A DNA stretch of 64,000 nucleotides from Isoetes taiwanensis (Eukaryota; Streptophyta; Lycopodiopsida; Isoetales; Isoetaceae): positions 3,974,407 to 4,038,406 of the forward strand of contig JAJEKV010000072.1 in the NCBI GenBank assembly GCA_021234155.1, given 5' to 3'. Numbering within the stretch: the first letter of the stretch is position 1; every line of letters starts with the position of its first letter. The translations under genes and the position numbers were made by a program. The notes beneath the pieces are model-generated. The model was given only the letters and a program-made list of their open reading frames with translations. It was not told where the DNA came from and did no database searches. Of this stretch, positions 2,681 to 63,228 are shown piece after piece.

Positions 2681-2764
2681 GAAGTCAAAATTGTGAATAT
2701 TGTAAAGAAACGTGAAGAAATGTACTATATTTTGTAATGAATATACATGTATATTGAGTTTTGG

Positions 2765-2790
2765 CTTTCGACCAAGCTTGGCCGAGAAAG
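2765..2790. repeat. Palindrome, unit 1, site 1
   Basis: CTTTCG...CGAGAAAG flanks a perfect 10-bp palindrome CCAAGCTTGG (2772-2781). The same position in unit 2 (23323-23348) carries a different but also perfect palindrome built on ACTCGCGAGT. Confidence 0.8.
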
Positions 2791-2887
2791 GCATCTTGTC
2801 TGATGATGAAACCATTTGTATGTTTGTTTGGATGCATGCCCATAATCTATTACGATATTGGTTGTATATTGGGTTTTCTGAGGCCTT

Positions 2888-2905
2888 TCGACTTCGCGAA
2901 GTCGA
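2888..2905. repeat. Palindrome, unit 1, site 2
   Basis: TCGACTTCGCGAAGTCGA is a perfect 18-bp palindrome. The equivalent site in unit 2 (23448-23473) is built on GACTCGCGAGTC. Confidence 0.85.
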
Positions 2906-4590: not shown

Positions 4591-4599
4591 TCATCGCGA

Positions 4600-6063: not shown

Positions 6064-6760
6064 CTTGGGTGGAAGGATCTGGAAAGGATGAAGGAGGCCG
6101 GGACCCTAACATCCAGGGAGCTTGGAATGGAGATTTCCAGAGTGAGGGAAAAACTGTTCAACACGGGGAGCTTCACCTCCAGTGTGCTGAAGACTCTACA
6201 ACACTCGGCAGTGGGGAGGGAAGTTGTGGTTCATAAAGAAAAAAGTCCGGACAAGACCACAGATGGAGGAGATGACACCACACGGGAGGAATCAGATGAT
6301 GAAGCGTGGCGAAGATATGAATTCTACTCCCAATTAATGGATCCAGGATGGCGGTCGGGATTTCCGAGAGAGGGGCGCCGAAAATGGAGTGGTCGGCTCG
6401 GTATTATCCGTTGGGAATAGCACACAAAATTTCTTTGGTGTTAGACATCGAGGCGCTGAAGGTTTGCACGGGGAGATGCCGTCTTGTTCAACCACGGGGA
6501 ATTTAATCCGCACACATGCTTTGGAGATTCTCAACCTGATGAGTGCGACATCATTGCAGATCCAATACTGCGGATGTCATACCTTTCAGCAGATCGGCCG
6601 GTGAGTTGTTCACCGGAAGTCGAGGAAGACTCAAGGAAAAACATCCGCTCGGCAAGTATCACGCTGATCTTCGCTGAGGGCGCCGCAAGTATTGCGCAGA
6701 CGCGAGAGAAGGAGGTGCCGCAGCGACCGGGCGATAGATACGTTTAGAGGTGAGTTCTTG
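6064..6760 (+). pseudogene. Gene 1 upstream exons, unit 2
   Basis: The plus frame at 5962-6420 is clearly coding-like from about 6064. It starts GWKDLERMKEAGTLTSREL and continues through an acidic stretch (DKTTDGGDDTTREESDDE) to YEFYSQLMDPGW. A second block in another frame (6484-6640) reads FNHGEFNPHTCFGDSQPDEC and DIIADPILRMSYLSADRP. I read these as N-terminal exons of gene 1, because they lie directly upstream on the same strand and in the region that is co-oriented with it. No known domain is recognised. The true start is not visible, as the sequence joins gene 2 DNA at 6063. Confidence 0.4.
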
Positions 6761-7662: not shown

Positions 7663-8136
7663 GCAGCCCGTATCCCTGACGAGATCATACACGCCGGCAG
7701 CGATGGGAAAGCATTGGGTTGTCCTCGGCGTCCTAAAGGAAACAGGGGCTCCCTGGGATAAGTGGAAGACCTTTGAGAAACTATGCGAGATATGTTCTAC
7801 TGGAAGGCCGGAAGATGAAGAGGGGAGGATGAAGAGGAAAAGAAGAAGAGAACACCAAGAAAGGGCGGGAGTCTCTCGGACCAATATGACCTCATACTTA
7901 GCAATCGGTGCAGGAGAAATGGACCGAGATATGGGCTCAATGGACAAGAGGCAAGCTGAAGGACAGCAATGGGGAATTTCCATGCAAGCCAGACCCAAAG
8001 TTGTTCGACAGGCAATTTATGAAAAGGATACAGGGCCTGACCGACAAGGAAACGCTTTTGATCTACGAGGGGCAGAATCACGGATGGAATAATCCCGCTA
8101 AGGAAAAGTAGAAGCTCAAAAATGCAGGATGCAAAG
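7663..8136 (+). CDS. Gene 1 exon(s), N-terminal to the LTR-element insertion
   Basis: Frames at 7661-8092 and 7908-8111 both carry protein-like sequence. The second reads EKWTEIWAQWTRGKL, then GEFPCKPDPKLF. This resembles gene 2 at about 31 kb (FMEVVNKWATRKL, then GELPEKPTKYF), so I infer that the two genes share an ancestral N-terminal domain of unknown function. The exon reaches the target-site duplication CAAAG at 8132-8136 and would continue at 21201. A TAG at 8109-8111 (in AAGTAG) may represent a former CAG. The left frame and the right frame are offset by one base, so at least one indel or extra splice is needed. Confidence 0.5.
8132..8136. repeat. Target-site duplication CAAAG (left)
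   Basis: CAAAG directly precedes the LTR terminus TGTGACG and is repeated directly after the other LTR at 21196-21200. Confidence 0.9.
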
Positions 8137-9732
8137 TGTGACGCTCCCAGAATATATACGACCCTCGGACGTATACATACGGGGACTTTCCCCTCCCATG
8201 GCGATCATCTCACCATGAGCAGGGCCCTCCGTCTGGTTCGGGCCATCGATGAAATGAGGCCCGAAGAAGGACACGAAAGGGTCATTCGCCCACGCCTTCG
8301 GTGGGACTCCTACGTCATGGAAGCATGAATACAAGGGTTAGCACACGACGAATATACATAAATAACCACCACGAAGGGTGGCACATCCATCAAAATACCA
8401 ACGGCATAGAATATGCATCTAATCCTAAGAAAACACCCAAACCCCAGGTTCTACCCGGCTCGGACTCCCATTGGATCGGTGACGCTGGGCCTCAAGAGAT
8501 CAGCCCGGAAGCCCTTGGCATGGCGTTGGCGGGCGTGAGAACATTGGCTAGGGTTGTCCACTCCATCCGCCCCTCCCTGCACACTTTGGATGGGTCAATT
8601 CATGCTATGGCTTCGCTATAGCCTTAGGAGACCTTGAGACTCGGGGCATCACCCTCAGAGCCTACTCCCGGGTTCATGGCCTTTGGTCCGATGAGGCAGG
8701 TCGGGAAGCGTCCCCTTCGAATCACTGATGGTTCCATGGGTGAGCTAGAAATCGTGCGCATCGGCGACCCCCCGCATCCGTGCAGACTTACTCACCCTAA
8801 ATCTACTCAAAGTGCAAGGGTGCTCCATACGGATCACACCTTCCCACCCAGGAGTGTCGGACCCATACCCGCCCTCTACGTGGCCAGGCTATCAGGCCTA
8901 GCCCAGCCTAATAGGAGTCTCTAGAGCCTTGTATGCTCATGCAAGACCCCACCCCTCATGTCACCACTTGTGTTCCTTGTCTGGTGCTAAGCCGACCATA
9001 GCATCTAGGACCGGTGGGTTCTTGTGCCTGAGCCGCAACTAATGGGACTTTTACAGGGCTATCTAGGAGCATACTACTATACACGGTTGAGAGGCCTCTA
9101 CCCCCGTAATTCCCGTTTAGTCGGATGAAACAAGAACTAACAATCCATCCTTTTCAGGAGTAAGAACCGTAATTGAATATAAAGAGAACTTGTTTGCACA
9201 AACAAGGGTTAGTTTCTATGACCAATTACAAAAAGAACGGAGAAAGACGGACACAACCAAGTGTTATCTAGAATTCACATAGCCACCTACCTGATTACTG
9301 GCCGGACTCATTCCCATGGGCGCCTCCATCTCCGGCGGTTGAAGATTCACCGTGGCTTCCACAGGACGCAATCGTATGGCGGTTCTCTGCGTAGTGGTTG
9401 ATGGCGCTCGGCTCTGGCCTTCCTTGGTCGATCTTGAGAGTCAATCCTGGGATAGGGGTCAAGTTGGCATCCAAACTTGGCAATCCCATGTCGCCTAATC
9501 GATTGGGGCAGGTGGCGCCTTCCCAATTGGTAATTATCCTAATTTCCTAGGTTATAGGTTATTATTAATAATGTGTTAAATTAGCATAGCTAATTTAATC
9601 CTTTGTAAGGTAACCCCCTAGGTTGCAATTAAGTTCCCATACCCCCATGGTAGCGTACCTTTAGGGAGTGACGTGCTTGTATTTGTATGCGTGTCCCATA
9701 GTAGGCCCATATAAATCACGTGGAACGTCACA
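8137..9732 (-). repeat. 3' LTR of the gypsy element
   Basis: The LTR starts TGTGACG and ends CGTCACA on the plus strand, 1596 bp. It aligns along its whole length with 19611-21195. Long AT-rich parts are identical (for example 9541-9690 against 21006-21155), while differences pile up at CTG/CAG/CG words. Confidence 0.93.
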
Positions 9733-9745
9733 TTCTCCCCTCCTT
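9733..9745 (-). other. Polypurine tract
   Basis: Read on the minus strand, AAGGAGGGGAGAA lies immediately before the 3' LTR, the expected place for second-strand priming. Confidence 0.85.
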
Positions 9746-10221
9746 AAAAATAATGCTGTCCTCAGCATTATGGTTAGCTAATTGAATACATATACGTAAA
9801 GCACTCAATTAGAGAATGAAGTTAAGAATATAACAGTAATACGTGGAGATTATAGTAATTTGAACAGTAATACATTGAAGTTAAAATATCAAAGTACAAG
9901 CACCAGGGTGCCCGATACAAACTTATGATCAAAGGAGTTTAGGACCGGAGTCCGATTTAAAACATTCTGACAACAAAATTCATACATGTAGACAAAAGCA
10001 ATACGGGACAAGTTGGGTCATCAGCAACCCTCTATACAATGCAGGTGACGACTTGTTCATTGGCCTGCACATAACCATGTACCCGTAGGTTAATAGTATG
10101 ATTAAGTTGTGGTTGCAGGGACCACCCCCTAGAAATAAAAGAAAAAAAATATCTAGAAGGGAATCTATCATGTGTACGGCTTGGAATTCCTCTTATAGCC
10201 AGAACGAACGCAGTCTATTTA
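9746..10221 (-). other. Non-coding tail between pol and PPT
   Basis: This is an AT-rich stretch with no convincing frame, the 3' untranslated part of the element. Confidence 0.6.
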
Positions 10222-10791
10222 CTAGATGCCTTCGTAGCAATTCGCGGTCATGTCAACATCAACAATACACCACGTCCTAGAGAACACGAAGGTGATCTCA
10301 TCATCGGTTATTACTATCATATACGATGCGTCTACCCCTCTAAAACATGATTCTCGATCAATGAAGCCTTCAAGCTTACCGCCGAGAGCGGGGTTGATAG
10401 CATCGTTGATGGTGCGGCCTTGAGATTCCCGCATGAAGTCCGGATAGTGCTTCTCAAGGTCTATCTTCATCACCCAGGTAGCATCTTCAACTGGTAAGTG
10501 CTTCCACTTGACCAAGTATTGCAACATTTGAGTCCTTCTGGTCTGTTTGTAGGCTCGATCAAGAAGAGCTTCGGGCACTATTTCCAGCTGCTCTTCAGTC
10601 ATTTCTAGGAGGGTAGGGGTATCCAAGACCTCCTCTGGATCAGGGGTGTGTTGCTTCAGAAGACTCACGTGAAAGACCTTGTGGATCTTCAAGCGGGGTG
10701 GCAAGTCCAAGCGATATGCTTGTTCTCCCACACATTCGATAATCTGAATGGCCCGGCCCATCTCAGGGTGCCAACTTCTTCTGATTACCAA
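10222..10791 (-). CDS. Integrase C-terminus with GPY/F-like module and chromodomain
   Basis: The frame is open for 189 codons. Residues about 12-55 (IIECVGEQAYRLDLPP, then IHKVFHVSLLKQHTPD) are the integrase C-terminal module of Ty3/gypsy elements. Residues about 90-130 (QYLVKWKHLPVEDATWV) form the chromodomain, with the aromatic/tryptophan positions of the family. In chromoviruses this domain directs integration to chromatin with particular histone H3 marks (family knowledge). About 60 further residues follow the chromodomain. The upstream end is broken by indels, so the listed start is not the protein start. Confidence 0.9.
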   Translation of the reverse strand: MVIRRSWHPEMGRAIQIIECVGEQAYRLDLPPRLKIHKVFHVSLLKQHTPDPEEVLDTPTLLEMTEEQLEIVPEALLDRAYKQTRRTQMLQYLVKWKHLPVEDATWVMKIDLEKHYPDFMRESQGRTINDAINPALGGKLEGFIDRESCFRGVDASYMIVITDDEITFVFSRTWCIVDVDMTANCYEGI

Positions 10792-11079
10792 TTTTAAGCT
10801 TGGCTTGTTTTACTTTGATTTTAAGCCAAACCCGGATTAAGCCCACTGGAAGATTCGTGGGGTTCGGTGCTTATCCGCTAGACTCTTAAAACGACTAACG
10901 TCGCGGCCAATAAGTAACCCGAACTTCTTCCACCAAGGCTGCATTTCTAGAAGGAGTTGTTGAGAGACCTCCACTTTAGAAACAGGATTATGCCATGTGT
11001 CCGAGTAAGACATTGATAGCCATAATTTATCATGAAAGGAGACATTCTAGAAGACTCACGCTTTGTCTTGTTGTAGGCA

Positions 11080-11600
11080 AATTCCACCAAGTAAATATAA
11101 TCCGCCCATTGTGACTGTTTACTCTATACATAGCTTCTTAGCATATCTTCGATAATCGATTGACACGTTACGTTTGACCATCCGTCTACGGGATGGTAGG
11201 TCGTACTCATGGCAAGCTTGGTGCGGATGGTGGCGAAGAAATCCTTCGAATGCAGCGACAAACTTAGGATCCCTATCCGATACAATTACTCTTGGCATCC
11301 CGTGCAACCTGAAAATTTCCTTTGCAAAGAGCAAAGGTGTGTCGAAGGTGGTCGCGACATGGCGGAAGTGAGCCATCTTTGATAATTTGTCGGCGGCGAC
11401 CATTAAGGCATCATACCCACGGAGATGCGTGGAAGCCCCACAATGAAATCCATGGTTATGACTTCCCACTTGGCGTTGGGCACATCCAAAGGTTGCAACT
11501 CCCGGGAACTCTTAATTGCTCCGCCTTGGTTTTGCTGACAAACTGACGACAATTTTGATGTACCTAGCAATATCCTTCTTCATGGAAGGCCAAAAATAGC
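11080..11600 (-). pseudogene. Integrase catalytic core (frame-broken)
   Basis: The frame at 11119-11469 contains MVAADKLSKMAHF, then FRLHGMPRVIVSDRDPKF, the second block holding one catalytic Asp of the D,D-35-E core. The zinc-binding N-terminal part lies further upstream in other frames. Indels interrupt it on both sides. The last ~20 residues are scrambled. Confidence 0.85.
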
Positions 11601-11639
11601 TGGGCCGGATCTTAAAAGTAAGTTTTCATAAAACCCGCA

Positions 11640-13402
11640 TGTCTGCTATAGAGGCTGTTGTGTGTCATGGAGAATGAGCTTTCGCACCCCTCAAGTCATT
11701 TGGAACACACAACTTATCTTTGTAATATAATAAATTGCCCTCCTTCTTATATGAGCGGAATGCTTCACGTTCTCTATCGATCTGAGGCTTCCTTACCCAA
11801 ACTTTCCCAAATATTCTGAGTCGGGATCTGTGGCCAAGGTCTGTCTATCCGCTTCCCAAACCGGTGAGTGTGGAAATGGCATTACAATGGGTGCGGGTTA
11901 TAAAGGGATGGCGTGACAAAGCATCCGCAACCACATTGTGCTTTCACGGCTTGTATACAATCTAAAGTCATATTCCTCGAGAAATTCCATCCATCTTATT
12001 TGTGAGGAGATTTAGATTTGGTGGGTGGATAGATAGCGGAGACTCGATGATCCGTATCCAACTGAAATCTTCTACCAAGAAGGTAGTGTCTCCAAATCCC
12101 GGAGCACGCATAACTGCTAGCAACTCCTGATCATGGGTAGGATATCATTTGCTCTGCATCGTTCATCTTCTTTGAATCGTAAGCAACAACTCTCCCCTCC
12201 TGCATCAAGACACCACCGGTAGCTATCTTACTCGCATCGGTGGCTACGGTTTATCCTTTTCGGGATCGGGCAAGGTAAGGGGCTGGTGCAGATGTTAAAG
12301 CATCCTTGAGTTTCGAAAAGCCGCTTGGACTTGTGTTTTCCAATGTTCCATCAATCCTTTACTTTCTCATGTCTTGTGAGATTAGTAAGAGGTCTGGCAA
12401 TTGTTGCAAAATCCTTAACAAATTTCCGATAATATCCGCGAGTCCCAAAGAAACTCGGACCTCTGAAACATTATTTGGAATGGGCCAATCCTTTTTGCTT
12501 CTATCTTAGCCGGATCTGTAGCAATTCCTTCTGTTGAGATAATATGCCCCAAATAGTCTACCCTCGGAGTGGCGAACTTGCATTTAGAGAACTTGGCAAA
12601 GAGCTGATGGCATCTTTAGCTTTTGCAAAGCTAATCGAAGATGTTGTTCATGTTGCTTGCAAGGTTTTACTATAGATGAGAATGTCATCAAAGAAAATGA
12701 CAACAAAGTCATCCAAGTATTGGCGGAAGATGTCATTCATCGGCCCAGATAAACGTTGCGGGAGGCGTTGGTCAATCAAAAGGCATAACGGTGAATTCAT
12801 AATGCCCATATCGGGTGCGGCGGACTTATGGATGTCCTCTTCCTTAATCCTTATCTGATGGTACCGGGCGCAAATCAATCTTTGAGAAATATTTTGCTCC
12901 TTGTAACTGGTCCATAAGATCATCGCCTAGGCAAAGCATAGCGATTCTTGATGGTATGCTTATTGAGTTGCCTATAATCAATACACATCCTTAAGGAGCC
13001 ATCTTTCTTCTTGACAAAAGAATAGGAGGCGCCAAATGGTGAAACACTAGGGCGAATAAACCCCAAATTTCAGTAACTCTTGTAGGCTGTTTCTTAAGCT
13101 CTGCTAACTCCGGAGGACTCATTCCTGGGGGGCTTTTTGGTAGGCTTAGTACCCGTTCAAGAGTTATCTCACATTCCACCCCTCTAAAAGGAGGAAGCTT
13201 GTGGATCTCATCCGGAAAAGATCGCTAAATTCTCGAAGAAGGGTAGCAATGTCCGATGGTAACAGCGTCGATTACTTCTTTTGCTTTTGGAGTCCGATTC
13301 AATGGAAGCAAGTTTAATGAGGCAAAGAAGTTCATTCCTGGCGTTATAGCTTTTTCCTAGTCGCTTTATTGACATTGATGCATAGCGAGTGTAATGAATC
13401 AC
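11640..13402 (-). pseudogene. Reverse transcriptase and RNase H (frame-broken)
   Basis: The frame at 12648-12923 reads IFRQYLDDFVVIFFDDILIY. It carries the FVVIFFDDI catalytic block, where the usual Y/F-x-D-D motif is FFDD, followed by a thumb start. Upstream at 12991-13179 the reverse transcriptase N-terminal part is recognisable, and 11.7-12.6 kb corresponds to the thumb and RNase H in several frames. The broken frames mean that this copy as written cannot make a full polyprotein. Confidence 0.85.
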
Positions 13403-13599
13403 CTTTTATTGTCACCGTGCTCCATTAGCGGCGTTGAAGGTGACCTCCCCGTTTCTCACGCATCTATGTGTGGGCTCTAAGCGAGACGCTAAAACTCCAT
13501 TCCCACAATAAGATCATATTTGCCAATGTCCATTAACTTCGGCACCCAAGGCAACGGGTGCACCTTTGCAGCTGCATTTTAAGGTTAATCTGGCGCCAT

Positions 13600-13958
13600 G
13601 AGTGTGTATGCGATCTTACCGCTAGCTAATGTGGGCTTAGGTCGGGGATCTCAATGTTTCCGGTTGCGATGCACAGGCCATTCTAGGAGAAGCAAAATTA
13701 TCGCGTACTACCCGTGTCCATCAAAATTATGAAGGGCTTCTTGTCTACTTGGCCTATTGTAGAAATATGAAGGCTGATTTTCAGCGTTACTGTTTCTTCT
13801 ATAGCGGCAAGAATGTGAGACGCACCATGAATGTACTCGGGTGCCTCGTCCTCGGCGGCAAGATTGGACTCAAATCTTCCCAATCGAGGTCGACCATGGC
13901 GGATTGAGGCGATCTGCGTGGCGTGACGGACAATTCTGCATGAAGTGTCAGGCCTCAT
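13600..13958 (-). CDS. Retroviral-type aspartic protease region
   Basis: The frame at 13698-13958 ends with KPFIILMDTGSTR. The DTGST is the active-site loop of the pepsin-like protease of Ty3/gypsy elements. The preceding residues belong to the gag-protease linker, which includes zinc-knuckle-like remnants (CxxxxH pieces) at 13.9-14.0 kb in other frames. Confidence 0.8.
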
Positions 13959-14039
13959 CTGCCGGTAGCATGCCTTATCCGTGAACTGTTCTCGGCCTCT
14001 TTAGGAATGGACCGTAAGAGCCCCGAATTTCCTTTGCCG

Positions 14040-14990
14040 GCATTGTTACGCTTATCACGGCGTGCTAAAAGCAACTTTCTTCTCTGGCGTCCATAGGAAT
14101 TGTCTTTGAGAGGGCCACGGACTTGGCGATCGGGGGTTTGTAAGGTGTGGGCGGCCGTGGCTGCTGCGAGTAAGGAGCGGTCGCGGATCTTGGCTCCTTA
14201 GGCGTATCTTCCTCAAGGCTTAATGCCTTAGCTTCGCCTACCTTCTTTTGACTTTGGGTCGATAGCCTTGACCATTCGTTTAATAGATGGGGCCAACCCT
14301 TCAATGTAGCCCTCTACGCTCTTTTCTCATTCATTCACGGCACATACAACCTCAAACGCATGAATTAAATCGGTGTAGGCCTTGCGGACATGCCCTTCGT
14401 TCCAACCTTGTAGAAGGTCAAGAATCTGTTGGCATTTGTGGGCGCGAGGCGCGTAATGCGATTTAAAAGCCTTAGCAAACTTCACGAACTTGCATCCGCT
14501 CCTATCCGGTGTTTAGCTCGGCGTAACCCTTCCACCAAATCACAGCAGCTCCGGTAAGGTTAAGTGGTGGCGACCTTCCCTCAGTATCTTTCTCATTCCA
14601 TAGGACTTCCCGAACTCCTTCATTTGGTCCAACCAAGATTCCGCATTCAAGCCTCCTCCTCGGATTTCCCATCAAACTGAGCCAACTTCCGATTCTTCCA
14701 TATACTAGTGATAGTCATCAACAGTTTTTGGTATTCCTTATCCTTACGCCTTGAATGGTCACTTTACATGGCGAGGAACCCGAAGAACCCGAAGTGGTTG
14801 AATGTGAGGAAGCGGCTATCCTTAGAGGAACCGATGACGCTTAGCATGAGTCCTCCCCAATGCAGTGCAGGGCTAGCTCTGGGAGGATGGCTGTTGTGCA
14901 GGTGGACTCAATGGTCAGCGGAGGTAGTTCCGTCCGCCCTCCCAGTATGTGGCGGTGGATTGGTATGCAACACATAAGCCCAACTTCGTA
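14040..14990 (-). pseudogene. gag (frame-broken)
   Basis: By position between protease and the extra genes, and from pieces such as LTGAAVIWWKGY (about 14.53 kb, the typical gag core where a Trp-rich helix follows 'A..W') and a proline-rich linker at 14065-14304, this is gag. No single frame covers it. Confidence 0.65.
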
Positions 14991-15225
14991 GAGTTGCCTT
15001 TTCATTAACATCAATTCTGTTGGGGGTGAGCCTCTTTGGCGTTGGAGGGTGTTGCCTAGCGGCGTTACATTAAAATCCTATAGGAGTCATTCATGAATAT
15101 ATAAGCAGATTTACATTAATGTGCAATCCCTTTTTAAGTTAATTGAACAAAAGTATATACAAATAGAAGACAATACTTGTATTTCATTCAAGTTGATTAT
15201 AACAACGGGTTGATTGATACATGGA
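14991..15225. other. AT-rich spacer
   Basis: No gene is seen. It separates gag from the extra genes. Confidence 0.4.
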
Positions 15226-15845
15226 TTAAGATAAAAGTGGGTATGATACAATGGGAACTTTTAAAGTTCTCTTGGCACCTGGCGTAACCACACAAAGAAC
15301 GAAAACACGGAAGAGACCAAGCCTAGGGGTTGGCGAAGGGTCTGAGGATCGCGTGGCGGTACTCTCCCGCATGGCTTCGGACGAGTTTATAAGCGTGCCC
15401 GGCTTGGACAATGATTGCTTGGTACTCCCATGTTGGGCTGATAATCGAAAGGTTAAAGAGCCTTCGCTCGCATAAAAGAGTTGCCAAAGATGGTCGTTGG
15501 CGTCCTCAAAGGCTTCGTGCCTGGTCATATTCCAATAGTCCCAGGTACGACACAGGGTCATCTTCAGATCCTCGAAAGCTCGATCCCTAAGGATGTTAAC
15601 TATCTCCGACCCTTTGTCCAAGTGTAAGTAGAGTTCCCACGGTGGCGGTGGTTCGGTTTCATAGCCTTCCTCCCACTCGGATATTCACCATATCTCGACC
15701 ATAGTCCCAGTGCAGGCGGCCGGGATCGTCCCTCCTAACCATGTCGGTGATTCTTTCCTCATACTCCCAAATGGTTTCCTCTGCAACATATTTGGAGTGA
15801 ATAGAGAACATTTTGTAATTCCACTATACCCTAAACTTTAATGCT
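15226..15845 (-). CDS. Extra gene C of the gypsy element, function unknown
   Basis: The frame at 15226-15621 (131 codons) reads DKGSEIVNILRDRAFEDLKM and TWDYWNMTRHEAFEDANDHLW, which looks like a real helical protein. Upstream to 15.81 kb another frame continues (MFSIHSKYVAEETIWEYEER), so the full protein is probably about 190 residues with one or two frameshifts. I recognise no family. It is in the same direction as gag-pol and lies upstream of gag, where some plant gypsy lineages carry an extra ORF. Confidence 0.5.
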
Positions 15846-15931
15846 TTAAGAGGATGTCATAAAAAAAAAAATTTAGTTATACTCATCAAAAGAAAACTTT
15901 GTATTTAATAAGTAGATAAGGTACACATTTT

Positions 15932-17470
15932 TCAATATGGTTTAAACAATTGCCAATCCCAAAATCTCATAACTACATGTGTATATATATATACATAACA
16001 AAATTTATATAGCACGCTTAGTTCAGGAACTAGGCCCCGCCTCTTTATCCTTAGCCCTAGGAGGTGGTGGAGGCGGTTATGTCGCAGCCGAGAGCTACCC
16101 GGGGGTCCCACGGTGGCCGCCGCAACGGATGCAACCTCGGTGGATAGGCAACGGCCAATGGGGCTGCCGTAAGGAGCTTCATGCCCATCAAAGGCGCAAT
16201 ATCCTCGCCCAAGGCCGTAGAGGGCAAGATCCGTCGTGACAGTACATACGTAAACGTGCGATAGGGGAAGCTTCTTGTGGCGGCGGTGTAGAAAGTGCAC
16301 GGAGAGGCCCCACCATGAAGCTTCACCTCGGCCCTAAGTCCCGCTATAAAGAGAACCTGCCCGTGTTTGAAGGCCGACAAAAAAGAAACGGGTGAGGTGG
16401 TTACCCAAAGACCTTCCCTTGCGGAGTTTCAGATGCGGCCACTTCCTTATCCAAGTCCATGGGGACTTCTTCCTCCTTGAGCTCCTGTTGCTCCTCCTTC
16501 TTATGCGCGGGGTTATGATATAAATCTTCACCCTCATCATCTGAGTCGGAGGGAACCTCAACCATATTGATGTTTGGGACGTGAGGTCCCATAGCCGTGA
16601 AGGCATCACGTGCGGGGCGTTGGTCGGTTCACCGCATCACCGGTAAGTCGCGAAGACGTAATAGAGTCTCCGGCCACGCTCTAGGGTCTCTGACCGAATC
16701 TGCGGCCCAACTGGTGCACCTCCGGAGGAAGCTCGGTAGAAGTGAAGTCGATGAAATCATCCATACAATACTCCGCAAGCTCATAAAGTACATGGTCTTT
16801 GCGCTTGCGTCTAAATCCGGCCACCACGTGATACGTCCAGATAATATCATCCAAGAGAAGGTATTCCCACCGGTGATAAATAAGCGGAAGGCCGCCTAAC
16901 CCCGACAAGCCTATAGATTGGTCCGGGTAGCGGTGGTAGCTCCTCTGCTAGCTCTTTTCCAGCGGGCAAAATTAAGCCCATTCCTATATGCTCGTCATCC
17001 CCTCCTCGGAGGATTCTCGGCAGCCTTGCCCTTCTCTGCCGGCAAGGTTTCATCCTCAGCGTGTTGGTCCATGAGGATGGCTAGAGCAAAAGTAGCTTCC
17101 GGATCTGCCCCCGATCTTTGGACCACCTGGTAGATGTTTACCCCATCGGAGTTTCCCCTTCAAGGCGTCATAGGCATGTGTGTCCCCGCCTAGCATCTGC
17201 CGAACTATCTCCCCTCAAATACAAGTGGGGAGGATCCCTAGAAGAATACACGAGGAAGCATTTCCTCTATGTAAAATCAAGGAATCCGGCATAGTCCCGG
17301 ATGCCGCCAAGATGTTAACAAGGAGGTCTATCGTTGGCATAGGAAAGGCTGCAGCCGGTCGAAGGGAACACATGGATCCCATTTCTCTCCATCAAGGTAC
17401 CGGGCGGCAAGGTCGGTGGGCGACCATGGCGCTAGAAGGGAGAAGAGAGGAAAAGAAGCGTTTAAAATGA
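15932..17470 (-). pseudogene. Extra gene B of the gypsy element, function unknown
   Basis: Several coding-like blocks are in different frames. The block at 16681-16908 reads LLDDIIWTYHVVAGF and ELAEYCMDDFIDFTSTELPP. The block at 16401-16592 is strongly acidic (VEVPSDSDDEGEDLYHNP, then KEEEVPMDLDKEV). The stretch at 16.85-17.4 kb is GC-rich with no clean frame. Acidic tracts are common in chromatin-associated and histone-binding proteins, but that is only suggestive here. A full-length related copy would be needed to define it. Confidence 0.35.
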
Positions 17471-17586
17471 CCCTCTGGTCCCCTTTTAAACCCTCTTAAT
17501 AAAGCCGACGTCGGCATTTTATTTTAAATTTAACATGGAAAAACATTAAACTTTTAATTCAAAATAAAAAGCTTCTTTATTAATTA
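17471..17586 (-). terminator. Possible polyadenylation region behind the H3-like gene
   Basis: On the minus strand an AATAAA (17576-17581) lies five bases after the stop codon, followed by T/A-rich sequence. Either the H3-like gene keeps its own 3' end or this is chance in an AT-rich gap. Confidence 0.35.
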
Positions 17587-18321
17587 TCACACAAAAAAAA
17601 AATATGTACAAATCACGGATCCCCGCGTGTAGGCTAAGGTTGCTCCCCGTATCCTACGGGCGAGGGCCAAATCCTTAGGCATTATGGTGACCCTCTTTGC
17701 GTGAATAGCGCCAAGGTTGGCATCACCAAAAGTGCTACCAAGTAGGCTTCGCTGACCTCTTGGAGCGCCAAAATTGCAAAGGTCCGGAACGGAGATCGGT
17801 CTTAAATTGCCGCGGCGATCTCCGTCGCCGACCTCTGAAAAGGCGGCTTCACGATCGGAAGGTCCGTGGACTTCGGGATTTCGCGGATCTCCCGCAATGC
17901 CACTATCACCGGTCGGAACCGATGAGGCTTCGGCGTGGCGAGGCCCCGACGATGTTGGCACCGTCTTAGCCCCAGCAACCGGCCGGGAGTTATCCACTCT
18001 CTGCTGCCTCCGGTCGGAGCTGGTCTTCTTCCCAAAAGCCCCGACAGTCTTTAACTTATCCTTGTATTGACTGCCGGCCTTATGAGCAACTCCCTTCCTT
18101 CGGAACCGCTGTCCGGATCGTGGTTTTTGGGGTCGAGCCACTCCCGGATGCACCTCCTCCTCCCCTGGTCCCGCTGATCCCTCGCCGGTCCCGCTCCTCT
18201 TGCTCCAACTTCTCGCGCTCTTCACCGAGGCTCTCCTCAGGTCTTCTTGGATCTGAGCAAAAAGTTGGGCTGCGGCACGGCGATTAAGTTCAGCGTGGTA
18301 CCTTTGTGGCCGCAGGCCCAT
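17587..18321 (-). CDS. Histone H3-like protein encoded inside the gypsy element
   Basis: Minus-strand 17930-17641 encodes a histone H3 core without gaps when three single-base indels are allowed. Recognisable blocks are [57 protein letters not shown] and LARRIRG, corresponding to H3 residues about 37-132. By canonical numbering F41, L90, H113, K115 and K122 are present, and position 110 is G instead of C. Loop 1 has canonical length, so it does not look like CENH3. Upstream, instead of the normal tail with K4/K9/K27, there is a long basic region ([34 protein letters not shown]), and there is a C-terminal extension after RIRG. Frameshifts at residues about 75, 84 and 104 may be real or technical. 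Alternative: a host H3 retrocopy inserted into the element. Confidence 0.88.
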
Positions 18322-18930
18322 ATCTATCTGAATAGTAGTCAGATAGTCTATGCTAATGTCGGGGATCTCTCCCCAGACAAAGCTGTTGGAACCCTCATGC
18401 CATTGGTATGGGGAACCTCAATAAGCTCTGCCATCGATGGCCCGGCAAAGCCGTCTCAGAAATACCGGGTACTCCCTACCCGGGCTCTTTGTGTCGGGCC
18501 GCTCAATTCCCCGGTGGTCGTCTTCCCCGCAAAACCCTAATCCGGGTCGACTCCTCGTCTCCGACATCTTCCTCCTCGTATGGCCTTCTTGTTGGAGGAT
18601 AAAATTTGATGAGCATCATCACCATGTCGAGGTTGCTCAACAAGGGTATATATGGAGTGGCGTAGGTTCACGGGATGAGGAATGGCTCGAAGTGATAGAC
18701 GGGATATGGAATCCTATCATTGTTCTCAAACCTATTGACCAGCTCATCCAACAAGATGTCGATGAGGGTTGGGTCGGTAGCCATGTGCTTAGCAATCATG
18801 GCGTAGATCTCCACGATGCTCATGGTGGACGGGTCCGGAGCGCTCTTGGTAATAGCCATAGGGAATAGTGAGGCGCTGGCGGCGAAGAGGATGGCAGAGG
18901 GGGCGCTAGGAGGCACAAAGCACAAGGGCG
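18322..18930 (-). CDS. N-terminal part of the H3-containing gene or a separate upstream ORF
   Basis: The frame at 18668-18925 reads [20 protein letters not shown], then [18 protein letters not shown]. Between 18.32 and 18.42 kb the H3 frame stays open upstream ([16 protein letters not shown]), so the likely protein is a long N-terminal domain fused to the histone fold. Repeated indels at GC-rich words prevent a firm start. No known family is recognised. Confidence 0.4.
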
Positions 18931-19596
18931 CAGTATCAAGGTCCGGCCGGTGGGCGATGGCGGGAGGCTGCTCAGTGGTTGGAGGCGCGGAAGCAAAAGC
19001 AAATGACAGAAAATGGTTTGCTAAACGGCCAATTAACTTTTAAAATTTCAAAAAAAAAATTTCTTATTAACTTAAAAATTTTATTATTTTAAAAAATACT
19101 GGCGGATATCTGGCCACATAATGCCGGTATGGAAATGATGGCATTATACGGGTTTCTGCCTCCACTGGGTGTCGTCGAAATACAAGCGGCGCCCGAGTTG
19201 ACCTGGCGTCAGCGTTGACTTGAGTCCATTCGGTCGGGCGCCGACAAAGATTTCGGCGCTTCTTAACTTGATCGCAGCGACAAAAAGCAAGCGGCGCCCG
19301 AATTCGTTTTGGGCCCGCCCTTGACTATTTTTTGCCCGAGTTGATCGTTTTAGGGTAATTCGAAAAGCGCCCAATCCAATGGAGCCATCGTCTTTGTCAT
19401 TTGAGTTACCCACTGGCACCTGCTAGGCCTCCAATCTTGGCCCCTCCACTTCAAAGCTACAATTCCTTAACTTAACCTAACACCAAACCAAACAACAAAG
19501 AGAACTAACGACACATTGACTTAGCCTCCTCCTAACTACCGCATTTCACGAAGTTAGTGTTTGCCGGTGCTATGATTTCAACAACCGGAAATCACG
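18931..19596 (-). other. 5' leader region of the gypsy element
   Basis: One 91-codon frame at 19144-19419 is open and arginine-rich, but I see no family. The remainder is AT-rich and includes poly(A)-like stretches at 19.04-19.10 kb. Confidence 0.4.
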
Positions 19597-19609
19597 GCTC
19601 TCGATACCA
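19597..19609 (-). other. Primer binding site
   Basis: On the minus strand TGGTATCGAGAGCC follows the 5' LTR by one base. It is one base different from TGGTATCAGAGC, complementary to the 3' end of initiator Met-tRNA. Confidence 0.8.
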
Positions 19610-19610
19610 C

Positions 19611-21195
19611 TATGGACGCCCCGCATTATATATATACGACCCTCGGACGTATACATACGGGGACTTTCCCCTCCCATGGCGATCATCTCACCATGAGCAG
19701 GGCCCTCCGTCTGGTTCGGGCCATCGATGAAATGAGGCCCGAAGAAGGACACGAAGGGGTCATTCGCCCACGCCGGTGGGACTCCTACGTCGCGAAGCAT
19801 GAATACAAGGGTTAGCACACAAAGACGAATATACATAAATAACCACCACCGAAGGGTGGCACATCCATCAAAATACCAACGGCATAGAATATGCATCTAA
19901 TCCTAAGAAAACACCCAAACCCCGTGTTCTACCCGCCTCGAGACTCCGTGGGGATCGACCGATCAACCGGGCCTCAAGAGATCAGCGGGCGAGGTCTTGG
20001 CATGGCGTTAATGGGCGTAGAACATTGGCTAGGGTTGTCCACTCCATCCCCCCTCACGCACACTTTGCGGATGGGTCAATTCATGCTATGGCTTCGCTAT
20101 AGACGCAGACTCGTGGGCATCACCCTCTGAGCCTACTCCAGTTCATGGCGCTGGTCCGATGAGGCGGTCGGGAAGCGTCCCCTTCCGGAATCACAATGGT
20201 TCCATGGGTGAGCTAGAGAATACGTGCCGCATCAGCGACCCCATCCGTGCAGAATTTACTCACCTAAATCTACTCAAAGTGCAAGGTGCTCCATATGCGG
20301 ATCACACCTTCCCACCCGGGGAGTGTCGGACCCATACCCGCCCTCGTGGCCAGGCTGTCGCCTAGCCCATTGTAGGAGTCTCGGGAGCCTTGTATGCTCA
20401 TGCAAGACCCCACCCCTCATGTCACCACCGTGTTCCTTGTCCAGTGCTAAGCCGGACCATAGCATCTAGGACCCGGTGGGTTCTTGTGCCTGAGCCGCAA
20501 CTAATGGGACTTTACTGATGCTATCTAGGAGCATACTACTATACACGTTTCGAGGCCTCTACCCCCGTAATTCCCCTTTGAGTCGATGAAACAAAGAACT
20601 AACAATCCATCCTTTCGGAGTAAGAACCAAATTGAATATAAAGAGAACTTGTTTGCACAAACAAGGGTTAGTTTCTATGACCTAATTACAAAAAGAACGT
20701 AGAAAGACGGACACAACCAAGTGTTATCTAGAATTCACATAGCCACCTACCTGAATTACGGCTGGACTCATTCCCATGGGGCGCCTCCATCTCCTGGCGG
20801 TTGAAGATTCAGCTGTGGCTTCACAGGGACGACTGGTATGGCGGTTCTCTGCAGGTGGTTGATGGCGCTCAGCTCCTGGCCTTCCTTGGTCGATCTTCAG
20901 GAGTCAATCCCAGGGATAGGGGTCAAGTTGGCATCCAAACTTGGCAATCCCCATGCTGCCCAATCGATTGGGGCAGGTGGCGCCTTCCCAATTGGTAATT
21001 ATCCTAATTTCCTAGGTTATAGGTTATTATTAATAATGTGTTAAATTAGCATAGCTAATTTAATCCTTTGTAAGGTAACCCCCTAGGTTGCAATTAAGTT
21101 CCCATACCCCCATGGTAGCGTACCTTTAGGGAGTGACGTGCTTGTATTTGTACGTGTCCCGTATAGTAGACCGTATAAATACGTGGAACGTCACA
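19611..21195 (-). repeat. 5' LTR of the gypsy element
   Basis: This is 1585 bp, aligned to 8137-9732. Its outer end CGTCACA is intact, and its inner end reads TATGGACG where the other LTR has TGTGACG. Being upstream of gag on the minus strand it would contain the promoter; I did not identify a convincing TATA box. Confidence 0.92.
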
Positions 21196-21200
21196 CAAAG
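21196..21200. repeat. Target-site duplication CAAAG (right)
   Basis: This is identical to 8132-8136 on the far side of the element. Confidence 0.9.
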
Positions 21201-22301: not shown

Positions 22302-22416
22302 GTGAGTTCACTTTGCTTTGTCCGTGTTTCTCGACTCGCGAGTCGAGAAACCTTTCCATTTTTGACTCACGAGTCAAGAAAACTCGTTTCCTATCTGACA
22401 TCTCTCATCATTTCAG
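22302..22416 (+). other. 115-bp intron with two palindromes
   Basis: The donor is AG|GTGAGT and the acceptor is TTTCAG|G. Splicing joins ...LENLKLR to NIERNDSGSLS in frame with no stop. Inside are a perfect 24-bp palindrome (22327-22350) and a near-perfect one (22363-22378). Confidence 0.75.
22327..22350. repeat. Perfect 24-bp palindrome in gene 1 intron
   Basis: TTTCTCGACTCG followed by its exact reverse complement. The same 24-mer recurs at 23324-23347 and 23449-23472. Confidence 0.92.
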
Positions 22417-23178
22417 GAACATCGAACGCAACGACTCCGGATCATTGTCAATATTAATGATCCCGCATATGGATCCCGACGAACCAGAAATATGGTCAGA
22501 GCCAAACTCCAACTGGGATCCAGCTGGTCCCACCAAGCTTGTAATATTTGACGTCAATGGAGTATTAGCTGCAGTATACCACGATAAAGACGTCCCTGAG
22601 CTTAACACCTCGCAGATCCCGACGAAAATGGAGCATAAAATCGTGTATCCGAGGCCTAGAGCAAAGGAAATTGTTGAATGGTGCCTGGAACGGGGATTCG
22701 AAGTGGCCATATGGTCTTGTATGGCAAAGAAAAATATTGTCAATGTTCTTGGTGTTCTCGGCCTTCCAGTTTTGAAGTTCAAGTTTGTTTGGGGAAGTGA
22801 AAGGGTCGAAAGCATGTGTCGATCTCGATCCAGCCATCACAAAGGGGAAGCATATTATGGTGAAAAGGTCGGATGGGGTTTATGAACAATTCCCTGACTT
22901 TGGGAAACACAACACACCGATCATAGACGACTCACCTACAAGTGCTATCATAACTCGCATGTAATACAATCATTGCTAAGACTTATCGACCGTAAGAGTA
23001 TGAGACGGATAGGTGGTTGTCTTTCTGGACTTTGTCCCGCTTTGGCGAATCCCTCTTTGCTATTCTTGTGGCCGATGTGATTAGCAACTATCCGAGCCTC
23101 AAGGAACCCGATCCGTAGAGCCGCGCGATCATGAAAGCTATGGACGACAAATATTTTGGTGATCAAGAAGAGTGACCT
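22417..23178 (+). CDS. Gene 1 second part: FCP1/NLI-type HAD phosphatase-like domain
   Basis: The frame is open to 22885 and then continues in other frames. After a linker (IWSEPNSNWDPAGPTKL) comes VIFDVNGVL, the HAD nucleophile motif, in which the usual second Asp of DxDGT is Asn. Next come YPRPRAKEIVEWC, FEVAIWSCMAKKNIVNVL (motif II region), FVWGSERVESMC, then FPDFGKHNTPIIDDSP (motif III/IV, two Asps kept) and AIMKAMDDKYFGDQEE at the end. FCP1/SCP-type domains remove phosphate from Ser, for instance in the RNA polymerase II tail. The Asn replacement of the general acid suggests weak or no catalysis. Fusion to the upstream domain is inferred from the in-frame intron. Confidence 0.75.
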
Positions 23179-23322
23179 CTGCTTTCAGATAGTCAAAATT
23201 GTGTGAATATTGTAAAGAAACGTGAAGAAATGTACTATATTTTGTAATGAATATACATGTATATTGAGTTTTCGCTGGCTTTCTCGACTCATGAATATAC
23301 ATGTATATTGAGTTTTCGCTGG

Positions 23323-23348
23323 CTTTCTCGACTCGCGAGTCGAGAAAG
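23323..23348. repeat. Perfect 26-bp palindrome
   Basis: CTTTCTCGACTCG followed by its exact reverse complement. It is the counterpart of the unit-1 site at 2765-2790. Confidence 0.92.
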
Positions 23349-23447
23349 GCATGCTTGTCCTGTTGATGAAACCATTTGTATGTTTGTTTGTGTGGACTGA
23401 TGCAGCCATAATCTATTACGATATTGGTTGTATATTGGTTTCTCGGC

Positions 23448-23473
23448 CTTTCTCGACTCGCGAGTCGAGAAAG
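23448..23473. repeat. Perfect 26-bp palindrome
   Basis: This is the same 26-mer as at 23323-23348, 100 bp downstream. It is the counterpart of the unit-1 site at 2888-2905. Confidence 0.92.
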
Positions 23474-23602
23474 ACACTACTCTTCACGTGATTGGATGCA
23501 CTTATATGGAATGAATGCTCTATTGTAATTTGATTTCACCATTCTTTTCTTCCTTTTGACTAATGGCACCGTAATTGTTAATCATAGACTCTCCTTGCTC
23601 CA

Positions 23603-26536: not shown

Positions 26537-28124
26537 CTAGAAGATACTGAACCCTCCCGCCTCTTTTGGAGGGAACATAGGGGTGAAGATGTGCTGAACT
26601 TCATTCCATGCCTGGAGAATTTTCCTCATCACTGGGGACGTCCCAGGGGCCGGTTTGAATTTATAAAAGAATGCTCCCAGCTCATCTCGAGGGAGAGAGG
26701 GCTTACCTAGTAGTTTTCCTTGCTTCAGCCAGTATGATACAAACTTCAAGGCCGGAGACACCTCGCCTCCCTGCAGAGCTCTCCAGACAAATTTAGCTGC
26801 TAAGGCTTGAGCTTGTGTAAGAGGATCCTTGCAACCCAGCCCCCCATCTTTCTTATCACGACACAGCTCATTCCAGGCCACTTTGGCCATACCTCCCCAA
26901 ATAAATTTTCTGATGATCACCTGTACTTGATTGTATATTCCTTTCTGTGCCACCAGCACCGAAGAATAGTAGATGTGAGAAGCAGCCAAAATTGCATTGG
27001 CCACAGTGACTCGCCCTGAAGTTACTAAGGCTTTGGAAGACCATAAGCCCACCTTTTTCTTCAGCTTGTCCAGAATAGGGGCCCACAATCCCTTCATAGA
27101 GTCGGATAGGACAAGAGGGAGACCCAGGAGTTTAACTGACTCCCCAGGTGGCACCACTGGAAAGCCCAGACCTCTGGCTCGCGGATCAATATCATTGTCT
27201 AATGCCCAAAGTACCGAGCACTTGTTGGCATTGAGGCCTATCCCTGATATTATCTCAAAGGAAAGTAGAATGTGTCGAAATGACTGGAAACTATTATCAT
27301 CAAACCTGAGGAACATGAATGTGTCGTCAGCATACTGCATAATTGTCAGCTTCTCTGTTCCATCAGGGAAGGTCAGGCCCTCCAGGTTTCCTTCTGCCTG
27401 CTTTAATAGTACCATTCTTGTTAGCAGATTCGCCATGATGAGGAACATGTACGGCGCCAATGGGCATCCTTGCCTAATACCCCTCCTGAGATTAAAGGAG
27501 CCTCGTGAGGGTTGACCATTTACTAGGGGCCAAGCAGAGGCTAGATTGTTCATCCCCATAGCCATTTGAATAAATCGGAGGTCAAATCCTAAGTAGCTCA
27601 TAACTTCTAAACCCTTCCCATCTAAGAGAGTCGTAGGCCTTTCTGAAGTCCATTTTGATAAGGACACAATTTTGCTTTGAGGCGTGACACCAATGCAGTC
27701 CTTCTCTAGCTGCCAGGTAATTATCCAGAATGTTTCTTCCAGGTAGAAATGCAGATTGCTCTTTCCCGATTACTCTATTGAGAATAGGCTTTAGACGGTT
27801 AGCAATTACCTTCATAACCACTTTATACAGTACATTGGTGAGAGCAATGGGACGCCACTCCCCAATGTCTTGAGGTCTGGGTATCTTTGGGACTAAAGTA
27901 ATGAATCCAGCAGCAAGAGATGGGTGTAAAGAACCTGAGATCCAAGCCCCTTGCACTGCTCGGGTGAAGTCATGGCCCAGCACATCCCAGAATTCTAGAA
28001 AGAACTCCGGAGGAAAGCCATCTGTCCCCGGAGATTTTCCCCGCCGCCGGGAACCAAGGGTTTTGTGAATCTCATCCCCCTCGAATGCGGCAGAGTTGGT
28101 TTTCTTCCCCGAAAGTGACACCAT
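26537..28124 (-). pseudogene. LINE reverse transcriptase (two overlapping frames)
   Basis: The frame at 27582-28124 begins the RT domain, with KSPGTDGFPPEFFLEFW, IALTNVLYKVV, IGKEQSAFLPGRNILDN and CVLIKMDFRKAYDSL. One frameshift near 27.6 kb leads to 26537-27667, with RRGIRQGCPLAPYMFLI, the catalytic QYADDTFMFL and then SGRVTVANAIL. This is the non-LTR order of motifs 1-7. The element is cut before the endonuclease, with only remnants at 28.1-28.5 kb. Confidence 0.9.
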
Positions 28125-28944
28125 CCCTCCAAATAATTTTGCTCATCCAATCAGCTAGATTGGGATGGAATGAGGAGGGAGGGGTTCCTCCCCGAATTGG
28201 TTCTCAAAGCTTCACGATGAAGGATGAGATCTCTAGAGGATCCTCCAATATTTTCTCGATTATCATCTCTAATTGACGAAATCATTTGTACACTAGTCTA
28301 GCCCCTACATTCTCAAGAAGCATTTCGAGTTTTCATGGTCCATCTCAAAGATACCATTTAGTTTTGGAGCCGAACCACGCCCTCCTCGCTTCTACTTCCT
28401 CAATCGCCTTTAGCTTTCCCTTCAATTCTTCCTCCAATTCTTTGCATGTCAATATTATGGGGTGTGCCAGCCAGCCTCCTCGCTTTAATTAGTCTCAACC
28501 GTTATAGATCTCATTCTTTTTTCTCTTTTAAATTCCATAGCTCGATTCCTCGGCCCCACTTTTTGGCCCAAATCCTTCATTAAACAGAGCTTTTTACCCA
28601 AGCTTTCATACTCTGGGAGTTTTCAAAGATTGTTAAGAGAGGACACAAACTCTCCGGTTGGGTTTGCAAAATGCCTCTTTCCCCAACCAGGATGTGTTGA
28701 ATTTAAAAGGCACATTTCCAGTCTTCCTAGTCAGAGGGAATACTTTCGAATATCAAACTTTGAGGAACATGATCGTGAGTGTGAGAAGGCCAGCTCCCCT
28801 TCAACATAGCATTTATCCATGAAACATGCATTTATTAGCTATGTAGAATCTGTCTAATAAGCAATATACTCTGGTCCCGACCTTTTGCTTATTCGACCAT
28901 GAGAACGCAAAGATTAGAGGGAGGAATAAGAGGGCGATGTTTTT

Positions 28945-29237
28945 GACCGGTAGGCAAGGCGTGAGAGCCGAGTGCAAGCTTTATGGGAGGAGTTTAATAT
29001 CATTCCGACATCAACATGTAGAGAAGATCGCGATGGCGATCTTCCGACAAGTTCATAATACTATTCGATATGAATACACAACTTTCGGATATACACAAGA
29101 TCAAGAATCCTAATCGGTAAAAAAAATGTAAGAAAATATACACAAGCTCAAAAAGCGTAATACTTTTATAATATTTCATAGTCTTTACATGATTTTTCAC
29201 ATCAAATAAAGCCGTAATACTTCACTAAGTCCGCTCT
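28945..29237. other. Rest of the inter-unit spacer and gene 2 3' flank
   Basis: This continues the block interrupted by the LINE and matches 3755-4050. It contains AATACTATTCGATATGAATA, which recurs at about 75, 3851 and 4615. Confidence 0.65.
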
Positions 29238-29742
29238 ATTGAGTCTCTTTCACGCAATCCGGAGTAATGCCAAGTTTTTGGCCATTCTATCTGCATGTTC
29301 CTTTCCTAAGGCAATGGTCCATGAGAGATTCATTTCGAATATCCCAGAATTGAAGGGATCTCTACGCCCATTGCATTGGCGATATCCCGCACACGCCCGA
29401 AAGAATCGTGTATCCAACAATTCCTCCCAGTAGCTCACTAGAGAATTCAGACGTGCCCATTAATTTCCTTCTCTTGCTCCCCGCCGATCTTATTTGGGTC
29501 TTCGACCGAGAGTCGGCTTTAGAGGTACCCATATCGTATTCAAACCGGGTAGATTGTTTGTCAATCATACCGCCATTAATGGCATTGCCATTTCAAATTT
29601 TTGGTTCAAGACATCGAGCTTTTCGAATGTTTTATCAAATGCAGTCGACTTTCTTTCCGCCTTCTCTAGCAAAGCCCGAAGTTTTCCTATAGCCTCTCTT
29701 CAAAAGCCTTTCTAATCTAACTGGTCCAGGATCGTGTCCATG

Positions 29743-30297
29743 TTACTCGGATCGGGTCTCTTGAGTGATTTTGAGGTCCGCACGCCTCTTCAGCGTAGGG
29801 ACTTCTTTTTTGTTCCTCTTCTTCTTCTTCACAGCTTTGGCCTTGCCATTTTTCTCTAAGGTCTCGAAGAACAATCTCAAAAACCTGCAGACCTTGTCGT
29901 CATACTCCAAGGAAACGCTACGTTTCCCTTGCATGAGAGCCACTCTAGAAGCTGTCCCCGCGGAAAAGAAGTCAAGAACAGCACCATCATCGGGAATCAA
30001 CTCCTTGAACATGGCGTAAATATACGACGTTTTAGCCTGGCCTTTGAGAACGAAATTCCCTTCCATAGCTGCCCATGAAAACTTTGGCTTATCTGTGAAG
30101 TATTCCTGACATTTTTTCTTTGTTTTCACGTCCACCTCCTCATTACCTGTGATTGGATACTTTAGAAGAGGTGTGCCTCTAGGTGCATTGGTCCCCTGAG
30201 TTAGACGCAGCTCCAACCTAGGTTGCACAGGTAAGATACGCGCCTCACTTCTATTGATCGTCACATGGGTGACGTAGTATTGAAATTCCTTAACCAT
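29743..30297 (-). CDS. Gene 2 SAM-binding-like module
   Basis: The frame is open for 184 codons. Residues about 85-130 read KTSYIYAMFKELIPDDGAVL, then DFFSAGTASRVALMQGKRSV and SLEYDD, which resembles the motif X / motif I block of permuted DNA N4/N6 methyltransferases (helix, 'G..VLDfF.GtgS...A...Gr..iglE.D'). It is followed by a coiled, lysine-rich tail (KAKAVKKKKRNKKE) that may be a nuclear localisation signal. It is the best-preserved of the three copies of this module. Confidence 0.55.
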   Translation of the reverse strand: MVKEFQYYVTHVTINRSEARILPVQPRLELRLTQGTNAPRGTPLLKYPITGNEEVDVKTKKKCQEYFTDKPKFSWAAMEGNFVLKGQAKTSYIYAMFKELIPDDGAVLDFFSAGTASRVALMQGKRSVSLEYDDKVCRFLRLFFETLEKNGKAKAVKKKKRNKKEVPTLKRRADLKITQETRSE

Positions 30298-63226: not shown

Positions 63227-63228
63227 AA

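Follow-up and report, generated by a model that had tools for sequence, protein, structure and literature searches.

In the window analysed here, a stretch of 64,000 nucleotides of the Isoetes taiwanensis genome, a retrotransposon contains sequence related to histone H3. Few proteins are as conserved as the core histones. The locus raises the question of how an H3 came to lie in such an element and whether it serves, or has ever served, as a histone there.

Histone H3 core in the window

Plant H3 used as a tblastn query retrieved two matches in the window, one at 17930-17712 (frame -3, 55% identity, E = 1e-17) and the other at 17748-17644 (frame -2, 71% identity, E = 4e-12). There is no second H3 in the window, the next-best tblastn match, obtained with other settings, having an E-value of 0.057. 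Frameshift-aware alignment places the H3 core on the minus strand at 17930-17644, covering residues 37-132 (K37 to G132) with three one-base frameshifts and no codon gaps, and 67 of the 96 residues are identical to plant H3.1. Both frames score above the cut-off of 26.4 bits of the Pfam Histone family (PF00125), with 34.2 and 36.7 bits (one of the two pieces was entered with X at a stop), and the core read through its frameshifts matches an H3 chain in PDB with E = 3e-33 (phmmer). Thus, the gapless core with three one-base frameshifts given in a preliminary description of this DNA is borne out by tblastn, Pfam and the alignment. The region reported there (17587-18930) comprises H3 and the sequence upstream of it, H3 proper being the following feature:

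17644-17930, minus strand: histone H3 core, residues 37-132, with three one-base frameshifts (tblastn, Pfam, PDB phmmer, frameshift-aware alignment)

The histone-fold core is accordingly present, though interrupted by the three frameshifts, and the H3 reading frame is not intact; the breaks could partly represent sequencing noise. The 120 proteins listed as matches of the read-through sequence are 46-74% identical to it. The top ones are unnamed metagenome proteins, and below them H3s of diatoms, fungi, animals and plants are intermixed. This mixture of taxa points to no particular donor gene.

The retrotransposon housing the H3 core

H3 sits within one complete LTR retrotransposon of about 13 kb, which occupies positions 8137-21195 on the minus strand and is composed of the following parts:

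8132-8136, no strand: target-site duplication next to the 3' LTR, CTTTG when read on the minus strand
8137-9732, minus strand: 3' LTR, with ends TGTGACG...CGTCACA, 90% identical to the 5' LTR by BLAST
9733-9745, minus strand: polypurine tract AAGGAGGGGAGAA, immediately before the 3' LTR (assigned by eye)
10222-10791, minus strand: open frame with the SH3-like domain of the integrase C-terminus (PF24626, E = 2.9e-11) and a chromodomain at about 10432-10578 (PF00385, E = 1.8e-8)
11227-11415, minus strand: piece of the integrase core, sub-threshold (rve, E = 0.037, below the cut-off)
12149-13063, minus strand: reverse transcriptase/RNase H, broken by frameshifts (RVT_1, E = 0.005-0.009, below the cut-off; RT_RNaseH, E = 5.6e-8, above it)
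14231-14647, minus strand: gag-like region, broken and weakly assigned (Ty3_capsid, E = 0.067, below the cut-off)
19597-19609, minus strand: primer-binding site TGGTATCGAGAGC, with one inserted base relative to TGGTATCAGAGC, assigned by its position next to the LTR
19613-21195, minus strand: 5' LTR, ending in CA
21196-21200, no strand: target-site duplication next to the 5' LTR, CTTTG when read on the minus strand

The same 5-bp target duplication, CTTTG, flanks the outer ends of both LTRs with a perfect match, which shows that the element inserted as one unit. Both LTRs start with TGTGACG, and they are 90% identical by BLAST and 87% identical when gaps are counted. Several features identify the element as Ty3/gypsy type: the TG...CA LTR pair with its 5-bp target duplication, the primer site at the 5' LTR and the polypurine tract at the 3' LTR (the latter recognized by eye), and the order of domains on the minus strand, with RNase H at about 12.2 kb followed by an SH3 domain of the Tf2-1 type at 10.7 kb, the reverse transcriptase and integrase core being sub-threshold. 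The chromodomain at the integrase C-terminus, recognized from the domain profile, places it in the chromovirus branch. This chromodomain scores 34.6 bits against a cut-off of 25.1, and its best matches in PDB are chromodomains of the CHD1 type. Five of the ten element pieces submitted to the domain search matched nothing, among them a protease-like piece and two gag-like ones other than that with the Ty3_capsid match. The element resembles plant chromoviruses in carrying an SH3-like domain and a chromodomain at the end of its integrase; chromoviruses are not known to have a histone block ahead of gag.

The primer site falls 3 bases inside the 5' LTR end. We take TGGTATCAGAGC to be the plant primer site of the initiator-tRNA-Met type. 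Near-matches to it also arise in shuffled windows (0.8 on average), and the assignment of TGGTATCGAGAGC therefore rests on its place beside the LTR. An exact copy of TGGTATCAGAGC occurs at 63215-63226, beside an LTR of a copia-like element at 59325-63349 on the minus strand, which has a 121-bp repeat pair with 99% identity and ORFs of 504 and 364 aa (copia type assigned by eye).

H3 lies on the same strand as the frame encoding the chromodomain, that is, in the sense of the element, and it is located between the primer site (19597-19609) and the gag-like region (about 14.65-14.23 kb, a weak assignment). Both its orientation and its position between the 5' LTR and gag agree with the preliminary description.

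The block between the primer site and the gag-like region

The part of the element that contains H3 has the following features:

15100-19590, minus strand: extra block of about 4.5 kb separating the primer site and the gag-like region, with approximate borders drawn from composition
17587-18321, minus strand: open frame of 244 aa with relatives, among the matches listed, only at its H3 end
18199-18859, minus strand: coding-like upstream pieces in shifting frames, picked by eye, with no detectable relatives

The block consists of GC-rich stretches and four AT-rich spacers near 15.1-15.3, 15.8-16.0, 17.45-17.6 and 19.0-19.1 kb, and no repeat of it occurs elsewhere in the window. GC content is 0.56 in H3 and the part just upstream of it, compared to 0.465 in gag-pol. 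Some of the spacers (17450-17640, 15800-16000, 15100-15300, 19000-19110) look intron-like by eye, having pyrimidine-rich ends with AG; if they are introns, the capture would have been from DNA or unspliced RNA.

Sequence upstream of H3 probably encodes a protein. The region is open on both strands (plus 0.84 > minus 0.62), and the stop-codon test thus does not fix the coding strand. The 244-aa frame is out of frame through most of H3 and coincides with the H3 frame only for about the last 29 residues; no single frame shared by the upstream protein and H3 was seen, the frames shifting between pieces. None of 1619 word-sharing candidates, drawn from 5.8 billion proteins, matched a composite of 307 upstream residues (H3 excluded) at E <= 10. 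When viral contigs were searched for the copia frames, the chromodomain frame and the frame bearing H3, there were pattern matches and no confirmed relative, and Rfam produced nothing at the gathering threshold over the whole window.

Collinear short repeats in the extra region suggested a tandem duplication of the H3 block. This was rejected, since the Smith-Waterman score of 44 lies within the range of shuffled sequences (mean 35, maximum 47, n = 30) and tblastn also spoke against it. Inverted repeats of the Pack-MULE type were rejected as well, the longest having 25 imperfect bases.

Missing H3 tail and the chromodomain

Upstream of the core there is non-H3 sequence, as the preliminary description had it when stating that the usual H3 tail is replaced by a non-canonical region. 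Residues 1-36 are undetectable in the 180 bases upstream of the core, where the score of 25 is to be compared with a mean of 24 for shuffled sequences (P = 0.39, 200 shuffles). In a control, a real H3 tail was given damage at double the LTR rate, and its score was still at least 65 in 95 of 100 trials. It is the tail of H3 that chromodomains bind. It had been proposed that the element supplies its own H3 for its chromodomain to recognize, but this finds no support, and such a self-marking loop is unlikely because the tail, the part that chromodomains bind, is undetectable here. In the element's chromodomain, two of the three positions that form the aromatic cage presumably have non-aromatic residues, as judged by eye against the HP1 sequence.

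Divergence of H3 compared to decay of the LTRs

The LTRs provide a measure of the damage accumulated by the element. Over 1602 columns the pair differs by 150 substitutions (82 transitions and 68 transversions) and 34 indel events, 115 of the substitutions falling within or close to CG or CHG contexts. We applied half of the LTR-pair damage rate to back-translated H3 in simulations. The H3 frameshift load is what the LTR damage of the same element predicts, three frameshifts being observed and 2.2-2.6 expected. For identity the outcome depends on the starting sequence. Starting from plant H3.1, 79.6 identical residues out of 96 are expected (71-86) vs 67 observed (P = 0.007, 1 of 150 runs), and for an H3 of the D59/I89/S96 type 80.5 are expected vs 70 observed (P = 0.02). 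Damage at 1.5-2 times the LTR rate would account for both shortfalls. Since the change relative to both references exceeds the LTR rate, H3 may have drifted inside the element before this insertion.

The substitutions were then compared with natural variation in H3. An early test of variability with three divergent H3s was too small and was replaced by one using 233 of 237 fetched H3-like proteins; these are the best-listed matches to the sequence under study, which inflates the sharing of natural residues. Sixteen of the 27 readable substitutions, including L61P, L65P, L70S and V71A, are absent from all 233 proteins, and the other 11 occur in at least one of them. Seven (D59, T86, I89, L90, S96, L124 and A125) are natural in at least four, whereas simulated damage gives 0.4-0.9 such residues and never more than three in two sets of 150 runs (simulated cases with codon gaps left out of the count). 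This excess suggests a natural variant of H3 as the donor.

Variant references bring the observed identity closer to the simulated one. With a reference of ten variant residues (the seven above plus F87, A102 and A107), 77 of 96 positions are identical vs 80.1 expected (72-87, P = 0.23), and with a stricter reference of the seven residues, 74 vs 80.7 (72-88, P = 0.07, 300 runs); both were drawn up once the sequence had been inspected, and by construction they add ten or seven identities. Only against the variant references does the damage to H3 since insertion thus fit neutral decay as fast as that of the LTRs; against canonical H3.1 it does not. We infer that H3 was near-ordinary when this copy landed. 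In the simulations there is no sign of its conservation after insertion. Therefore, the earlier suggestion that the sequence evolved as a protein is supported only for the time before insertion, by the seven natural residues, and finds no support for selection still acting, given the 16 substitutions found in none of the 233 proteins and frameshifts at the LTR expectation.

Sequence quality

Part of the differences between repeat copies might not be biological. Differences within the LTR pair are clumped: 13% of the columns differ, yet stretches of 191 and 126 bases match perfectly. In two three-copy comparisons the most altered trinucleotides are CCG (0.36), CAG/CTG (0.31), CGA (0.27), CGC (0.23) and ACG (0.20), the remaining ones being altered at 0.04-0.18 (median 0.10). 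Clumped differences, separated by long identical stretches, are seen between 8152-9732 and 19630-21195 and among 47-1440, 4593-6064 and 29033-30516. They include many indels and transversions and are enriched at CG and CHG; possibly, they are errors of long reads that were left uncorrected where the DNA is methylated. According to the accessible part of PMC9749173, nanopore basecallers have difficulty with native plant DNA that is methylated. On the other hand, differences private to each of three repeat copies share 13, 15 and 11 joint blocks vs 12.7, 12.7 and 9.6 expected, and five blocks vs 3.3 for all three copies; the numbers being close to expectation, private differences do not fall on common hot spots. 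Of 31 single-base changes at C_G, 23 are transitions, as CpG decay would give. Basecalling noise behind the differences of repeat copies is neither shown nor excluded. Because the signals of noise and decay are mixed, H3 frameshifts alone are no proof of death, and scattered substitutions are no proof of protein evolution.

Origin of the H3 core and alternative explanations

Taken together, these observations are probably best explained by a captured fragment of a host H3-variant gene, carried in sense orientation by a chromodomain-bearing Ty3/gypsy-type element and decayed since, a passenger rather than a histone. The element would have taken up host DNA or RNA with the core of an H3 variant from residue 37 to near the C-terminus, the tail having been lost or never captured. 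Uptake would most likely have proceeded via transduction or template switching in reverse transcription. The H3 piece would then have been carried in the leader, in sense orientation between the primer site and gag, until the copy landed as one unit and H3 decayed like the rest of the element, most likely without acting as a histone. Capture by a retrotransposon is supported by the SH3-like domain of the integrase, the chromodomain and RNase H, all above their cut-offs, together with the reverse transcriptase, integrase core and capsid-like matches below them, all on the minus strand; the GC content of H3 and its upstream region, higher than that of gag-pol, is in keeping with capture. That H3 travelled with the element through transposition we infer from its compatible damage, that is, from co-ageing in the one copy seen.

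A fairly unlikely alternative is that the H3 block, as a transposon or DNA fragment, was inserted later into the already landed element. The block is GC-richer than gag-pol and has AT-rich borders, which speaks for this, but H3 shows damage in keeping with LTR damage, and the region has no inverted repeats beyond 25 imperfect bases. Direct repeats of at least 10 bases around H3 are pairs of A runs (up to 12), one CGGTGGGCGA pair and one AT-rich pair, none of which is convincing; around the whole block there is one AT-rich 10-mer and nothing longer, in a test that is blind to duplications of 4-9 bases. For a host H3 retrocopy landing here on its own, a poly(A) tract or a target duplication had been named as the mark in the preliminary description: no A run of at least 8 bases is present on the sense (minus) strand anywhere in the element, a 10-base run at 17593-17602 reading T on the H3 strand, and there is no convincing target duplication of at least 10 bases, lengths of 4-9 being beyond the reach of the test. 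A misassembly joining H3 sequence to the element would be in keeping with the noise-like differences among repeat copies, yet it has hardly any probability, as the element around the block is a single one, with target duplications that match each other and with a primer site and a polypurine tract, and H3 is damaged about as much as its surroundings.

The captured fragment could also have been more than a passenger, or have come from a different donor. The element family might encode a working fusion protein in which a tailless H3 core follows a new N-terminal domain and which associates with H4 or becomes part of nucleosomes to aid integration or chromatin targeting, only this copy being dead or misread. 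The sense orientation upstream of gag, the 244-aa open frame and an H3 that was near-natural at the time of insertion are what such a fusion would show, and the frameshifts may partly be noise, differences between repeat copies piling up at CG and CHG. A precedent is the functional captured domain of orchid Ty3/gypsy elements (PMC9289625, in its accessible part). Nevertheless, we consider a working fusion unlikely: besides three frameshifts, H3 has 16 substitutions absent from the 233 H3-like proteins, only its last part shares the reading frame of the open frame upstream, none of the 1619 scored candidates matches the 307-residue composite at E <= 10, the tail bound by chromodomains is undetectable, and the arrangement is seen as a single copy. 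It is also quite doubtful that a chromodomain retrotransposon lineage kept its own tailless H3 and new N-terminal domain intact until this insertion, for instance as a protein that joins H4 and seats the integration complex on newly assembled nucleosomes, with this copy being dead and its damage partly noise. As for the donor, centromeric H3 (CENH3) has an unusual tail that would account for the absent H3 tail and fits with A instead of T at residue 107 and with the non-H3 region upstream. CENH3s are characterized by a longer loop 1 and loss of Q68. The alignment to H3 shows an H3-like sequence in loop 1 and at the start of helix 2 (FKTDL, no insertion) and retention of Q68, which, by these criteria, makes a CENH3 donor very improbable.

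Comparison with genes captured by other elements

Capture of host genes by LTR elements is already known; it is the H3 cargo that is unusual. LTR elements captured 672 genes in rice and 1,343 in sorghum, as stated in the accessible part of PMC3726574, and gene capture by plant LTR elements and their additional ORFs, including maize Bs1, are reviewed in PMC13317346 and PMC7264820, respectively (accessible parts). What sets the present case apart is its cargo, a core of H3. Among the captured genes of sorghum, terms for chromatin and for chromatin assembly are over-represented, and the chromo domain is among the Pfam domains listed (PMC3726574, accessible part); a histone among these genes is possible. 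The word 'histone' is absent from the main text of PMC3726574, PMC7264820 and PMC13317346 as far as it is accessible.

The best precedent for functional capture in the accessible literature is provided by Ty3/gypsy elements of the orchid Phalaenopsis, which have an extra 2-ODD (AlkB-like) ORF encoding a working RNA demethylase, active in vitro and kept over many consensus copies (PMC9289625, accessible part). Like those elements, the one described here is a large gypsy element with an added domain of host type; unlike them, it is represented by one broken copy. The same source reports 15 frequent extra domains in 121 angiosperm genomes, non-angiosperms being outside the screen, and histone is not among the nine named in its accessible text. 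Judged by titles and the openings of abstracts of the best-ranked papers, no LTR element carrying an H3 core was found in the open-access literature. Should sister copies retain H3, the element would itself be delivering a nucleosome component to the site where it integrates; if it is a lone decayed copy, the case adds another gene fragment to those known to be captured.

Large DNA viruses with histones are an unrelated type of element. That they encode histones is described in the accessible part of PMC9145170, and the likeness to the present case consists in a mobile or viral genome bearing a histone.

Other features of the window

Further repeats and putative genes surround the element. A repeat family with several copies of about 87-91% identity is found at 47-1440, 4550-5972 and 29033-30516 and at 3725-4591 and 28933-29807, the copies near the window start being closely spaced. 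An ORF with a weak match to NIF phosphatase (E = 0.0046, below the cut-off) lies at 22313-22885, in a unit that is repeated at 1992-3389 with about 78% identity, and a palindrome-like motif around TTTCTCGACTCGCGAGTCGAGAAA, noticed by eye, recurs at about 22330-23480. ORFs resembling LINE reverse transcriptase, also by eye, are located at 26537-28124 on the minus strand. Three consecutive ORFs of 262, 296 and 335 aa on the plus strand at 34370-37500, with no Pfam match above the cut-off, perhaps represent one broken transposon gene.
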